Shown in pieces: positions 49,997 through 59,578 of a stretch of 64,000 nucleotides of DNA. The notes under the pieces were generated by a model, which was not told the DNA's origin, searched no databases, and saw nothing but the letters and a program-made list of their open reading frames with translations. The stretch lies in contig NZ_RBIE01000002.1 of assembly GCF_003633715.1 (NCBI RefSeq), positions 124,001 through 188,000 of the forward strand, given 5' to 3'. Within the stretch, counting starts at the first letter, position 1, and each line of letters starts with the position of its first letter. A program made the position numbers and the translations under genes. This DNA is from Thermovibrio guaymasensis. GTDB taxonomy: Bacteria > Aquificota > Aquificia > Desulfurobacteriales > Desulfurobacteriaceae.

Positions 49997-51361
49997 CTAT
50001 TGAGTTGATATTTTTCTACTAAAAACCACTCGTTCTACAACAAATTCATATATTGATCCATCATCTGGATAAGCATTAACATACATATTTTTGCAAATAA
50101 TTTCATCCTTTGTCGAATCAAAATTACATTCAAAAAAGTTGGGACTTACACCGTTCTTCTCTAAATTGTCATTAAAAAGAAATGCGAACTGGTCCTTGCC
50201 TACAACAAGCCCTACTACACTTTCTTCTGTAGTAGCTTCTGAAGTTAACTTAACTGTACAACTTCCAAAAGATTCAGGTAAAGCACTTGAATATTGAGAA
50301 AAAGTGATTCCAGCATCAGTATCAGATTCAGGCTGATTATAAGAACATGCATTCAAGTTAATAGCGTTATCATTCAAAATATCCTTGCATTTGATCAATT
50401 CTACTGAGTTTTTACTATTATAGATAAAATTATCTTTAAACTTTGACTGTAAATACTCGCAATCAGAAGGTTTAGGATAACTTATCCTTTTAGTTGTAAA
50501 CTCCCCCTTTAAGGTTAAGTTTCCTCGAGAATCAGGTATTAGAATTTGAAACCTCACATTCTGTTCATCAGAGATTCCAAACTCAGCTAAAAGCACAACA
50601 TCTTCACCTGTAATTAAACTTATACCTTTTAAACGAACAGTAACCGTGTTGTTCTTTTCTCTATAATCCAACGGAAGAAATTTATAAAAGTCCACCTTTA
50701 CTCTACCGTCAGGATAAACCCACTCTATAACTCCTCCACCTTTCGAACCATCAAACAACAGTTTAGCCAATACAGTGACATTTTCTACAGGAAAATTTAT
50801 TCCTTCAACAGGATCAGGTTCTGTAACGTATTCTCCAAAAAGATTTTGTTCAGCAAATTTTTTTGATGCCTCATCAAGAGAATTCTTAATTCTTTCATTT
50901 CGTTTTAATTCATCAATAGATTTTGCTACATTAGTTATACCTGCCACTATATTCCTTATTTTTTCTTCATCTACTGATATTCCATCTTCAGGTTTGTTAT
51001 TTGAGTCAGAAAGTTGAAGAATAGCCGAAAGAACTATACCTTCAGAAACAGTATCTGCAAGATGAACCGGAGTAATAACTGAAGAAGCTTTTGCTTCTCC
51101 AAATTCGATAATCTTCTCTTTATCTACGAAAAATTTTATTTTTCCATTCTTTAAATACTTAAAACTACCTTCATTATCCGTCTTTCCAGAATAAACAACA
51201 TTGCCTTTGCTATCTATAACCTCATAATACAAGTTACTGACAGGCGCATCTACAAATTTACCTGTTTCTAAATCCAATGTACTCGAACTATCTGCCGTAC
51301 CACCACCGCATCCGGCATAAAATATAGAAAATGCAGATACCACCACTATTAACTTTCTCAT
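49997..51361 (-). CDS. AT-rich orphan lipoprotein with a carboxypeptidase-regulatory-like N-terminal repeat
   Basis: About 454 residues. A lipobox (IFYAGC, Cys near 18) anchors it to a membrane. Residues ~30-75 follow a pattern frequent in bacterial surface lipoproteins: GKFVDAPVSNLYYEVIDSKG, then YSGKTDNEGSFKYLKNGKIKFFV (in parts), then ITPVHLADTVSEGIVLSA. The rest is Asn/Ser-rich with scattered Cys pairs (YLQS, LIKCKDIL, NACSYNQ, GSCTV, FFECNF, IICKN) that could form disulfides. I do not recognise a family. Base composition and codon use are clearly more AT-rich than lepA or ppa on either side, which suggests recent transfer. The start at 51361 is favoured by GGAGG. Confidence 0.72.
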   Translation of the reverse strand: MRKLIVVVSAFSIFYAGCGGGTADSSSTLDLETGKFVDAPVSNLYYEVIDSKGNVVYSGKTDNEGSFKYLKNGKIKFFVDKEKIIEFGEAKASSVITPVHLADTVSEGIVLSAILQLSDSNNKPEDGISVDEEKIRNIVAGITNVAKSIDELKRNERIKNSLDEASKKFAEQNLFGEYVTEPDPVEGINFPVENVTVLAKLLFDGSKGGGVIEWVYPDGRVKVDFYKFLPLDYREKNNTVTVRLKGISLITGEDVVLLAEFGISDEQNVRFQILIPDSRGNLTLKGEFTTKRISYPKPSDCEYLQSKFKDNFIYNSKNSVELIKCKDILNDNAINLNACSYNQPESDTDAGITFSQYSSALPESFGSCTVKLTSEATTEESVVGLVVGKDQFAFLFNDNLEKNGVSPNFFECNFDSTKDEIICKNMYVNAYPDDGSIYEFVVERVVFSRKISTQ

Positions 51362-51422
51362 CACTTCCTCCGTACGAAAAGTTACTGTGTTTAATCTTCT
51401 ATTCTTCAGCTATATCAATTAT

Positions 51423-54352: not shown

Positions 54353-57300
54353 TTAGTTCTTCTTCCTCTTCCTTCCGATGAAGAGACCAAGTAGACCTGA
54401 AAGGAGAGCTCCAAGGTTAGCTAAGCCGCTGGTTGCACTCTGAGGAGCTCCAATTGAACAACCGCCACCTCCACCGCCACCGCTTGAGGAGGAAGTTGAA
54501 GCAGTTGAAACTGAGGAAGAAGCACTTCCAACAACTGCAAAGTAGCTGAGCCTCTGCCTTGCAAAGGTTACGTATGGGTTTTCAGGATCAACGTTAAACT
54601 CAGTTAGCTTAATCCAGCTACGGCCGTCTTCACTTACCATAACGGCAACTTTTCCTGAAACCTTTGAAGGATTGTACTTAATGGTAAATGTAACTGGCGA
54701 GTTGAACTTGTTGTCTTTAGTATGAATGTCAAAAATGTCGGTAGCTAAAACAGGCTCTCTAATTCCTTCCTCCTTGGCTTTTTCAAGGGCACCCTCTTCA
54801 AGTTTAGGATCCTCAACTTTTTCAACTTTAACTGCTGTAGGAACTTCAACTGCTCCAGGTTGTGCAGAAATCGCAATCTCTTCGCTTTCCGGCCCGGTAA
54901 CTGTTCCATCCGGTGTTAGTAGGAAGTAACCGGCGTACTCTTTACTCTCAACAGGAACGGAGGTAAACCTTGCCATTGCTCCTTGAGTTATAACGAACTT
55001 ACCGTCCTTTACTTTAACTCCCTCTGGAACCTTCCAGTATCCGGCCTCTTTAGACTCCTTAATTGCCTCATCCGGTAGGGCGTAGGGAGCTAAGGTAATC
55101 TCCCTTCCTGCCTTCTCATCCCCACTCAAAACTGCAGGGCTGAGTCTGTTCTTACTTTCATCTTCACTGTGGCAAGCGTTACAGGAGAATACCCCGCTCT
55201 TCCTTGCACCGAGGGAGTACTCCTTCGGTAAAACTCCATGGTCAACTCCAAAGGGCGCAGTAAAGAAGAGGATTACTGGGTCGTGAGGATGGTCAGGGTC
55301 CTCAGCCTCAAGAACCTGCTTCAGAGCCTCCTTCATAGCCCTATACTCTTGGTCCGTGTTAATCTCAGGCTGGCCGTCACCATTATCATCGTCAATGTAG
55401 TCAGGAAGACCTCCGGGGTTCCCCTTAACCCAGTGAATTTTGAACGCAAACTTGTGGGTGTTAGGATCAATCGTTATACCCGGAACGCTCTTTTCCGGCT
55501 CTTCCGGATCAACGGTTGAGCATCCTAGAGGTTTACCGCTGCTATCATAAGCAGTTCCGTCAATTACCATGTTCATTTCCCTTGAGTAGAGGGCTCTTCC
55601 GGTCTTCGCATCAACCCAGGTTATAACCTGAATCGGGTTAATTAGACCGGCCTTAACAACGTCCTGACCGTCATCTCCAACCGTGTGCCTCCTGATGATT
55701 ACCGGCTCCCACCTCCACGGGAAGAGGCCTTTTTTAATCTCCCAAGCGCCGAATGAGCTATTGTTTACCCTCATTTGAGCCCTGTACGGGTCCATATCAA
55801 TACTTGTTATTGGCAAGAGAGTATCGTTCCCGTCGTTAGTCGTCTGCGCTATTACGTAGGAGAAGTTTAGGCCGTAAGTTGGAGAAGGTCCGAAAGCCGG
55901 AATTGCCCACTCAGGTGGAAACTGACTGATTTTAATGTTGCCGTTTTCAACCGTTAGGTTCATAAACCTGTTGTCAAACTGGTTAACGTATCCCATTGAA
56001 TCGTCAAAGAACCTGAAGGTCCAGTAGGTTTTAAAGGGTATGTGGCATACCTGGCACATAATTGAGGAGATGTGGGCCTCTGCAGCAGGTCCAAACCAGT
56101 TTTCGTGAACCTTTGCAGCTGCCTTGTCTGAACCCCAGTGACACTTCTCGCAGGTCTGAACTGAAGGGTTGTAGTCAAGTGCTGGCATAACCTCACCGGC
56201 AGGGTCGTTCCCCTTTAGGAAGTTGTGGGGATTGTGCTTTAACTTCTCCTCCTCGCTAAGGTTGTCCTGGCCGTGACATGAGAGACAGCTGAGATCTCCC
56301 TTTTCACTGTCAAAGTGAACGTCGTAACCTACAGGAAGGCCTTCCGTTGCGCTTAAATCGGTGTTGATTTCCCCGTTTGAGTCAATGGCTATCGGAGCAA
56401 CTGACGCATCGTTCTCGTGCTCCTCAGGAGCGTAAACCGCTGCTCTCTTAACTACGTCTGCTCCAAGGCCGATAATTCCCCTCCTTACGTACCAAGAAGG
56501 GAAGAAATTCTGGCCGTCAGGAGTCCACTTATTTCCTGTATCGGGAATTGCAAAGTGGCACTGGGCACACATAAGCCCCAGGTCCTTATCGCCACTTCCG
56601 GTGTGGTACTTTGAAACTCCATTCTCTTTTGAGCTATCCGGCTTAGCAAGTGAATAGGCTCCTGACGTTTCAAGTATGGGAAGGTCAACGTTTGAAAGGT
56701 CAACATCTGAAGCATAGTAAGTTTTAGCTTCAAACTGGCCCGTCTGTGGATCCTTTTTGAGGACGACAAAGGCAAGTGGTTTAGTTGGATCGTTAGGGTT
56801 TGCTACTCCCATGAGAGTTCCAGAGTCTGCCCAACCGAAGAAGAAACCAGCCCTTGCAAGGTTAACGATTTTTGCCTTTTCATTAGGGTCAAAGGGCTTA
56901 TAAGAAAAGCCGCTGCTCATATCCGTTTGCCTTACGTAGAAACCACCTCCAACGTAAGGCTGCCCCTCAACCGTTGACTCGTAGAAGGCGTTCCTCAAGT
57001 AATCCCTTGCGGAGAAGTTTGGAGCTCCAAGATCAACGTAGAAACTGTCAAAGAAAGATGAGAGCCTGTTTTTATTCTGAGAGTCGTTATAGGTAAACTT
57101 GTTACCACCAAAAGGAGTATAGTCAATCTCAAACGAAGAGGTATTACCGTGCCTTAAGTTTCCGGTAATCACTGCTACTGTATAGCTTTGAAGCTTCTGT
57201 TTAGTCTGCTGGTCAACATTACTCAAGTCAATTCCAGAGTGCTGAAGGCAGTAACCGACCACGTCTGAGTAGTAGAGGGAAACTAACCTCTCAAGTGGAT

Positions 57301-58306
57301 CAGAGTAAAAGGCTGCAGAATCTACCGTGTAGCCACTACTAATTTCATCACTTGTCAATTTTGGAGGAAATCCTAGGCTAACTTCAACAACTTTACCGTT
57401 AGGGTCCTTCTTAACAAATATGAAGACTCTCGGGTTTGCAGGAGTCGGATTTTCAGCCTTCCAACCGTTAGCAGTCTGAACAACTAAATTCTCTTTCTCT
57501 GCAAGGCTCCTTGAAGCGTGGCAGAGGAAACAGTCCGTATCAAGGACTCCAGACTTCTTCCAGTTAAACTTATGGGGCTTTCCTACGTAACCCCTTGCAT
57601 ACTCATCCTGGGTGTAAGAGAAAAGGTCCCCATCAACCTCTGAATCGCTGTAGTCTGCCTTTGAGAAGAAGCCCCTTCCATCCTTATCTTCGCTCCAGCT
57701 CTCCCCAACGTCGTGCCTCTCTCCCGTCTCCCTGTCAAACTCCATAATTCCACCGGAGTGACAAGCAGCACAGGTGAAAATCTTATCAGGAGTTCCTGCG
57801 TCAAAGGCGTAAGTAACGTTTCCTCTATAGTCTATCCCGTTGTTAAGCTCCGGAGCTAAACCTGGCTCCCTTGCTGGGTGTTTTGCCGCCAACTGGCGGT
57901 AGGAAGGAGGTCACCAGGCTCCATCATCACCAAAGGAGCGAATGAACTTACGCCAATCCTTCCCTTCAAGAACCCTCTTGGCTCCAAAGTCGTCGCTTAA
58001 CTCATCCCATCCCCTTCCTACGTGGTAAGCTGAGTGGATAGGACCGGGAGACTTAACACCTCCCTTCACGTTTCCAGTAATTTTGGGGTGGCAATAACCA
58101 CAGGTGGCCTCCCAGCTTACTGGAGCACCAGCACAGTACCTCTTCCCCCCCACAGTTATACAGTCATTTTCATTTAAAGTGTCAGCAATCTCATTTCCGT
58201 TAATGTCCCTTAAGGAAACTGATGGGTGAGAAAAGGCCTGAGCCGTTAGGGCCAGAAGGAAGGTAGAGCTCATCGTCAGAGCCCTCTTCCACCTAAAACT
58301 TTTCAT
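54353..58306 (-). CDS. Candidate selenocysteine-containing octaheme c-type cytochrome, UGA at codon 132, sorted by a Gly/Cys-tail
   Basis: One frame of 1318 codons from ATG 58306 to TAA 54353, broken only by TGA at 57913-57911. Codons 1-131 hold a signal peptide (~1-25) and one heme site, CGYCH (Cys69-His73). After the TGA the frame continues PPSYRQLAAKHPAREPGLAP and holds seven more CxxCH sites: CAACH, CFLCH, CAQCH, CLSCH, CEKCH, CQVCH and CNACH (total eight). The second part alone would begin at a TTG with no ribosome site and no signal peptide, useless for a c-type cytochrome. The C-terminus is Ser/Gly-rich, then Cys, a hydrophobic helix and RKRKK: a Cys-containing sorting signal like JDVT- or Synergist-CTERM, suggesting surface anchoring. 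A strong AGGAGG precedes the ATG. A nonsense mutation or sequencing error is the main alternative. Confidence 0.72.
57866..57913 (-). promoter_or_regulatory. Candidate bacterial SECIS hairpin after the in-frame UGA
   Basis: The UGA (57913-57911) is followed by C, a weak stop context. Sixteen bases later comes the loop AGUU (57894-57891), closed by a perfect five-pair stem CCGCC/GGCGG (57899-57895 with 57890-57886). The loop has G in its second place, and the distance and stem size fit the usual description of bacterial SECIS elements. A lower stem CUCCUU (57909-57904) can pair with AAGGGAG (57872-57866) across an uneven internal loop. Confidence 0.55.
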
Positions 58307-58372
58307 TGTCCCCTCCTAATTAGAGCAATTTAAAGTTTATTTTAATTAGATTTTTAGAAAATTCAATATTAC

Positions 58373-58458: not shown

Positions 58459-59578
58459 CTACTCCTCTCCCTCCGAAGCCTTTTTCTTAAGGTAGGCCTC
58501 TATAAACTGGTCAATATCACCGTCCATTACAGAGTTTACGTTGGAAGTCTCAACGCCGGTTCTCAGGTCTTTTACCATCTTATACGGGTGAAAAACGTAA
58601 GAGCGTATCTGATTACCCCAGGCTATACTCTTATGTTCTCCCCTTGCCTGGGCAATTTTCTCCTCCCTCTTCCTCCTCTCATACTCGTAGAGGCGAGCCT
58701 TTAAAATCTTCATTGCCCTTTGTCTGTTCTGTATCTGAGAACGTTCACTCTGGCAAGTTACAACTATCCCAGTTGGAAGGTGTGTAATCCTTACTGCTGA
58801 GTCCGTTGTGTTTACGTGCTGCCCCCCTGCACCTGAGGAGCGGTAGGTATCTATCTTTAGGTCTTCCTCCCTTATCTCAATATCTATCTCATCCTCAATC
58901 TCTGGGACGACAATTACTCCACAGAAGGAGGTATGCCTTCTGGCGTTTGAATCAAAGGGAGAAATCCTTACGAGCCTGTGGGTTCCATGTTCAGCCCTGA
59001 GTAAGCCGTATGCATAGGGCCCTTTTATAAGGAGGGTTGCACTCTTAATTCCGGCCTCTTCGTTCTCTTGAAGGTCAAGGATTTCCACATCATATCCCTT
59101 CCTCTCTGCCCACCTAGTGTACATTCTCATGAGCATCTGGGCCCAGTCGCAGGACTCCGTTCCGCCTGCACCGGCGTGAATGGTCACTATCGCGTTGTTC
59201 TTATCAAACTCCCCCGATAAAACTTTCTTTATCTCAAGCTTTTCAAGTTTTTCCTCTACCTCTTTTAGTAAACCTTCAGCCTCGTTAAGGAGGGAAGTTT
59301 CACCTTCCTCTTCCGCCATCTCTATCAGGACTTCAACCTCTTCAACTTTCTCCTCAACGTCCTTAACGGAGGAAATCTCTCCCTCTATCCTGTTTCTCTC
59401 CATTGAAACTTTCTGGGCCCTCTGGGAGTCACTCCAGAAGTCTGGAGAGGACATCTCCTCCTCAAGTTCCCTTAACCGTTTCTCAAGCTGGGGAAGGTCA
59501 AAAATACCCCCTTACTTCCGATAGTTTCTCCTTAACCTTTGAGAGCTCCTCCTTTAAATCCTGAACCTTCTCTATCAT
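58459..59578 (-). CDS. prfB: Peptide chain release factor 2 with programmed +1 frameshift
   Basis: The ORF starts at ATG 59578 (MIEKVQDLKEELSKVKEKL) and meets an in-frame TGA at codon 27. A +1 shift at TTT joins it to the main frame (DLPQLEKRLRELEEEMSSP), giving 372 residues, close to E. coli RF2 (365). The main part carries GAGGTESCDWAQMLMRMY, the stop-codon reading region with SPFDSNARRHTSF, and the catalytic GGQ motif (SSGAGGQHVNTTDSAVR). RF2 reads UGA and UAA; frameshifting rises when RF2 is scarce, an autoregulatory loop known across bacteria. Confidence 0.96.
59497..59512 (-). promoter_or_regulatory. prfB +1 frameshift site
   Basis: AGGGGGTATTTTTGAC: an internal Shine-Dalgarno-like AGGGGG, three bases, the slippery codon TTT, then TGA and C. 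It matches the classical AGGGGGTATCTTTGAC with TTT in place of CTT. The reading passes from codon 26 to GAC by skipping the T of TGA. Confidence 0.93.

Follow-up and report, generated by a model that had tools for sequence, protein, structure and literature searches.

The window analysed here is a 64,000-nucleotide stretch of DNA from Thermovibrio guaymasensis, a heat-loving bacterium of hydrothermal vents (contig NZ_RBIE01000002.1, positions 124,001 to 188,000), whose minus strand carries a gene for a predicted exported octaheme c-type cytochrome, hereafter family O, with one in-frame UGA that is very probably decoded as selenocysteine (Sec). The frame runs from ATG 58306-58304 to TAA 54355-54353, and its sole interruption is the UGA at 57913-57911, codon 132 of 1,317. 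Eight CxxCH motifs, one before and seven after the UGA, and a signal-like N-terminus judged by eye give the product the features of a multiheme c-type cytochrome, namely export and several CxxCH motifs. The sequence-only reading had described one frame from 58306 to 54353 broken by a single UGA, a one-plus-seven split of the hemes and no ribosome-binding site at TTG 57892; re-examination of the sequence confirmed this layout, and all of its coordinates were correct. The features of the gene are as follows.

54353..58306, minus strand: gene for the putative octaheme selenocytochrome, family O, 1,317 aa with Sec132, from the frame and its homologues
58312..58317, minus strand: ribosome-binding site AGGAGG preceding the ATG, from the sequence
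58088..58102, minus strand: heme 1 motif CGYCH, codons 69-73, the sole CxxCH before the UGA
57911..57913, minus strand: in-frame UGA, codon 132, predicted to be read as selenocysteine, with UGA at the same column in all O, P and Q genes
57758..57772, minus strand: heme 2 motif CAACH, codons 179-183
57518..57532, minus strand: heme 3 motif CFLCH, codons 259-263
56555..56569, minus strand: heme 4 motif CAQCH, codons 580-584
56273..56287, minus strand: heme 5 motif CLSCH, codons 674-678
56138..56152, minus strand: heme 6 motif CEKCH, codons 719-723
56042..56056, minus strand: heme 7 motif CQVCH, codons 751-755
55169..55183, minus strand: heme 8 motif CNACH, codons 1042-1046
54356..54490, minus strand: C-terminal tail (Ser/Gly-rich stretch, Cys, hydrophobic stretch, RKRKK) common to families O, P, Q and X, with a putative function discussed below

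We searched 101 related genomes and found relatives in 17, spanning six genera of one family. The complete alignable genes numbered 24, comprising 11 orthologues (family O) and 13 paralogues (family P), with 36-40% identity between P and O over the aligned region and 36-82% across the whole O/P set. The results showed a UGA at the codon-132 column in 24/24 genes, never a sense codon, within the shared motif WUPPSYRQLAAK (GDDGAW-U-PPSYRQLAAK in family O; SHYGGW-U-PPSYRQLAAK in family P), and three further fragments (G011 and G020 of O; G015 of P) likewise carried the UGA. A profile of the N-terminal part, run over 136 genomes of the phylum, gave short matches, again with one UGA, which make up family Q, an octaheme of about 810-920 residues with the motif KL-U-[P/A]-PAYRQLAP found in nine genomes including the present one. 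The UGA was present in 9/9 Q genes, and when the Q and O/P profiles were compared, the Sec columns aligned and the Sec region matched at 99.9% probability. The present genome (G000) has three selenocytochrome genes scattered among housekeeping genes, the window gene (O) and the following two, of which the sequence-only reading was unaware.

G000:C4:51358-55875: second selenocytochrome (about 1,510 aa, family P); a predicted lipoprotein-like gene of 427 aa comes after it
G000:C1:152580-155033: third selenocytochrome, family Q, 819 aa, with UGA and hairpin as in O and P

For one orthologue (G005:C1:346603-350577), the search listed an in-frame TAA besides the UGA, and direct extraction gave one frame with eight hemes and UGAs only; the discrepancy probably arises in the stretch ahead of the start or the end.

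Immediately past the UGA lies a candidate selenocysteine insertion sequence (SECIS), located as follows.

57886..57899, minus strand: SECIS hairpin CCGCC-AGUU-GGCGG, 11 nt after the UGA, with its loop 16 nt after the UGA
57887..57901, minus strand: 15-nt invariant stretch TACCGCCAGTTGGCG, in 33 distinct genes of three families

The hairpin was identical in 24/24 O and P genes, and the stem in family Q has a 4-bp core (CGCC-AGUU-GGCG), some Q stretches folding at about -7. The 15 nt of TACCGCCAGUUGGCG, nucleotides 10-24 past the UGA (13-27 from the U of the UGA), were unchanged in all 33 distinct genes. The bSECIS model specifies a loop of 3-9 nt, a stem of 4-16 bp, G in the first two loop positions, a spacing of 16-37 nt and a minimum free energy of ≤ -7.5 (PMC13188914), and the window hairpin agrees with it on every point (5 bp, AGUU loop with G second, 16-nt spacing, -9.4 kcal/mol). 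Among the 2,129 UGA triplets in the window, only 3, that of codon 132 included, are followed at such a distance by a stem of 5 bp or more capped with an NG[G/U]N tetraloop.

Conservation at the codon level pointed to the same element. The O/P alignment contains 220 degenerate columns with an invariant amino acid, 7 of which use a single codon in all 24 genes; 5 of these 7 are the consecutive codons +4 to +8 after the UGA, the only run without synonymous change (hypergeometric P about 5 × 10−9, with columns taken as exchangeable). Relatedness does not explain this run, because one tree underlies all columns. All three single-codon columns of 4- or 6-fold degeneracy fall within it, and the kept codons CGC, TTG and GCG are little used in the gene (for Arg, 37 AGG versus 2 CGC). 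With an unvarying stem, there was no helix covariation to draw on.

By default a UGA means stop, and codon 132 might end a first product, leaving two conserved adjacent open reading frames or a decaying gene with the second frame beginning at TTG 57892; the same alternative was raised for Geobacter by Fujita et al. 2007 (PMC1914089). The starts available past the UGA argue against this (ALTERNATIVES to Sec): 32 of 33 genes have no Shine-Dalgarno sequence at any in-frame start within 60 codons of it, and the sole start common to all genes is the TTG inside the hairpin loop, which in the window gene is the only start of the second frame and has no Shine-Dalgarno sequence upstream. Translated separately, the second frame would give a product with seven heme sites but no signal peptide for export, and c-type heme attachment takes place outside the cytoplasm. 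Both sides of the UGA are conserved through three paralogous families, and decay would be expected to leave varied lesions, not one identical UGA. We therefore regard termination at codon 132 as very improbable.

The genome encodes SelA, SelB, SelD and a tRNA-Sec with anticodon UCA, and tRNA-Sec has been reported for Thermovibrio ammonificans and Desulfurobacterium thermolithotrophum (PMC4227106). Two known selenoproteins of the same genome that are unrelated to the cytochrome, FdhA and SelD, served as controls. The fdhA gene has an in-frame UGA (ARI-U-HST) with the hairpin core GGCC-AGUUU-GGCC, and selD (G000:C1:38087-39013, L140) has an in-frame UGA (ASG-U-GAK) with the hairpin AGCCC-GGUC-GGGCU. 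Their hairpins, of 4-5 bp with loops AGUUU or GGUC at 17-18 nt, are of the same design as that of the cytochrome. SelD is itself a selenoprotein, and its SECIS loop GGUC is E. coli-like. GCCAGTT(N)GGC is found at 7 sites in the 1.6-Mb genome. At 4 of them, in fdhA and each of the three cytochromes, the string is preceded by an in-frame UGA of a long frame at a distance of 13-15 nt, and the remaining three sites are not so placed.

The gene upstream is itself subject to UGA recoding.

58459..59578, minus strand: prfB (release factor 2, the UGA release factor), a separate gene, syntenic upstream of the selenocytochrome

The prfB gene is split by a classical programmed +1 frameshift (AGGGGGTATTTTTGAC), with its UGA at 59500-59498 on the minus strand, and in genera g1 and g6 it immediately precedes the selenocytochrome; a UGA-recoded gene thus neighbours the gene for a factor competing for UGA. 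Such recoding next door would suit a reading in which near-cognate suppression or frameshifting places Trp, Cys or another residue at codon 132. However, the Sec machinery is complete, the hairpin has the design and Sec spacing seen in fdhA and selD, and no homologue has Trp or Cys at the site. The hairpin is like those of known selenoproteins and no homologue carries a sense codon at this position, which makes read-through with another residue hardly credible.

Under selenocysteine decoding, SelB would bind the mRNA hairpin 11 nt downstream and deliver tRNA-Sec to UGA132 co-translationally, and read-through would fuse the secreted N-terminal piece, with its signal peptide and heme 1, to the other seven hemes. 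Since read-through would join a one-heme piece to seven hemes, only a one-heme stub would be exported in the absence of selenium.

A further paralogous family, X, lacks Sec.

G000:C1:215945-217597 (L139): family X octaheme, Sec-less; others are L054, L055, L137 and L138

Set against Q without gaps, family X reads GMYNRVSVPHMFHLAP where Q reads GMYGKLUPPAYRQLAP, a placement made by eye with GMY and LAP as the flanks, and the Ser of family X fell in the Sec column also in a MAFFT alignment with O, P and Q. The PPxYRQ motif is lost in family X, so that Sec and this motif go together, both being missing from it. The family X copy in G016 is interrupted by an in-frame TAG.

Between hemes 1 and 2 the selenocytochromes strictly keep the loop U-[P/A]-P-x-Y-R-Q-L-A, and we lean towards a redox-active site there, at which the Sec selenolate would attack the substrate as a nucleophile and the heme chain of the exported cytochrome would supply electrons. 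Among energy traits of the Desulfurobacteriaceae, sulfur respiration is the most common. The responsible enzyme in Thermovibrio has been described as unclear (PMC5441870). For these two reasons sulfur compounds are our first guess, ahead of nitrite, and the substrate might tentatively be an S-S compound (polysulfide, thiosulfate, tetrathionate) or another chalcogen at the cell surface or in the periplasm. A catalytic Sec could also serve a nitrogen oxide, reducing nitrite to ammonium as the missing step of Thermovibrio nitrate ammonification, and known octaheme reductases do use nitrite or hydroxylamine. In T. ammonificans the route from nitrite to ammonium has been described as unresolved (PMC5441870). 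However, known nitrite-reducing multihemes do not need Sec, and the window protein gave no family match to NrfA or HAO. Family O also occurs in a genome that we take to be that of D. thermolithotrophum, which is not known to respire nitrate, and this too counts against nitrite, a distinctly unlikely substrate.

The heme ligands offer another view of the Sec. Across O, P and Q, seven His outside the heme motifs are invariant, and Q has no further invariant His of this kind. With seven universal His for eight hemes, one heme would have no conserved His partner, which has the suggestive look of a catalytic heme; the invariant Lys 620 and 698 could serve instead. The count is suggestive only, because O and P hold additional family-specific His. 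The same seven His for eight hemes, and the position of Sec between hemes 1 and 2, would fit a Sec that is a heme axial ligand or a structural or redox-sensing residue and does not attack a substrate. Against this, one of these Lys (O numbering) might supply the eighth ligand, or the site might be open, and family X shares the seven His yet has Ser at the Sec column; we judge it unlikely. Its most specific form, in which the selenolate of Sec132 ligates or directly opposes the eighth heme, the one without a conserved His, is a long shot. If true, a respiratory octaheme enzyme would harbour a naturally occurring selenolate-heme site that three paralogous families have retained, none of them with a cysteine version.

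The C-termini of O, P, Q and X end in a common GGG(G)C-hydrophobic-RRKR tail that resembles CTERM sorting signals and looks like an anchoring or sorting tail. Compared with the GlyGly-CTERM type, the Gly run, hydrophobic stretch and basic end look alike, with a Cys after the Gly run. The best genome match to the rhombosortase model reached 34 bits versus a cut-off of 84, and the model also matched in 14/14 control genomes, so that no sorting peptidase was identified with confidence. The sequence-only reading had seen in residue 132 a catalytic ligand of an octaheme reductase at the cell surface; its selenocysteine held up, and the ligand or catalytic role of Sec132, the reductase identity and the surface location remain inferences from motif conservation, the heme-ligand count and the anchor-like C-terminal tail.

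Several points weigh against a catalytic selenocysteine at codon 132. The case is computational throughout. The folding energy of the hairpin alone was not significant against shuffles (z = -0.79), and for this reason the evidential weight was placed on codons that stay invariant from gene to gene. Among the 136 genomes of the phylum no homologue with Cys came to light, so that no Sec/Cys exchange confirms a redox role, and the Sec-less paralogue has Ser, not Cys. SelA occurred in all 22 sampled family members, among them every selenocytochrome carrier and five genomes without these cytochromes (four sampled g7 genomes and G010), and the cytochromes are therefore not the sole reason for Sec use. 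Structure prediction, with a predicted local distance difference test score (pLDDT) of 52.5 for the O/P alignment and 46.6 for Q with other families, was too poor to place the Sec relative to a heme, and a Foldseek search of the Protein Data Bank (PDB) gave no match. The substrate assignment is a guess.

The evidence for Sec at residue 132, as the sequence-only reading had proposed, comes from the UGA kept in all homologues, the Sec machinery and the invariant SECIS hairpin. The hairpin with G in its loop that this reading had noted was borne out by its invariance across families and its fit to the bSECIS model, and the selA, selB, selC and selD genes that it had pointed to are all present. 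The homologues that it had asked to compare at position 132 keep UGA throughout, but its test for Cys homologues had another outcome, with no Cys form and with Ser in the sole Sec-less paralogue; none of the contrary signs it had named, absence of selA, selB or selC among them, turned up. On computational grounds selenocysteine at codon 132 is close to certain, and we put the probability that UGA132 of this exported octaheme c-type cytochrome is decoded as selenocysteine at about 0.92.

Annotation without UGA decoding would split such genes into a stub and a cytochrome lacking an export signal. The joint use of selenium and heme becomes directly testable in a cultured genus. In the vent autotrophs that bear these octahemes, the sulfur and nitrite reductases have been described as unresolved (PMC5441870). 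Elsewhere in the window, positions 49997-51364 (minus strand) hold a 455-aa open reading frame with no Pfam match and only a weak match to a nickel/cobalt energy-coupling factor (ECF) subunit.

Comparison with known systems was made at the level of both sequence and literature. When the PDB was searched by sequence, the single protein matched a generic cytochrome only marginally and the profile matched nothing; tblastn of the Q protein against plasmids and a PHROGs search gave no match, and the literature searched contained no paper mentioning both Desulfurobacteriaceae and selenoproteins. Selenoprotein cytochromes are nearly unknown there, with one predicted Geobacter family and one database-annotated case. 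The former, a pentaheme selenocytochrome predicted by Fujita et al. 2007 without a SECIS being found (PMC1914089), was later named ExtKL (PMC5877670), and a 2026 review lists ExtKL together with a GenBank-annotated Sec member of TIGR04315, WP_331457571.1 (PMC13188914).

ExtKL (NF040886, GSU2937-2936) is likewise a c-type multiheme gene with one conserved UGA in Sec-using bacteria, and a predicted selenoprotein without non-Sec homologues (PMC1914089). However, its five hemes all lie N-terminal to the UGA, whereas the window protein has one before and seven after; it belongs to the ext cluster with a porin and other cytochromes (PMC5877670), whereas the window gene stands alone; and no SECIS was found for it in 2007, whereas that of the window gene is clear. 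The window protein gave no match to the NF040886 model at E ≤ 0.1. The tetrathionate reductase family octahemes of TIGR04315 share the eight hemes, and the region of hemes 5-7 shows a weak and partial match (32.7 bits for O and 44.6 bits for Q versus a cut-off of 375, with about 80 of 440 model positions matched), but the window protein is much larger and far below the family cut-off. OmcA/MtrC (TIGR03507, PF22113) resembles it as a large multiheme with a local match at 672-763 (27.6 bits; 20.1 bits), but the window protein has 8 hemes, not 10, and falls below both cut-offs (TIGR03507: 20.1 versus 209.3 bits). An MtrC-type conduit was considered and rejected, as no MtrB-type porin gene adjoins the window gene. 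The window family fits neither ExtKL nor the Sec-octaheme TIGR04315 model, and the Desulfurobacteriaceae octahemes are a second group of predicted selenocytochromes, clearly SECIS-supported and made up of the three paralogous families O, P and Q.

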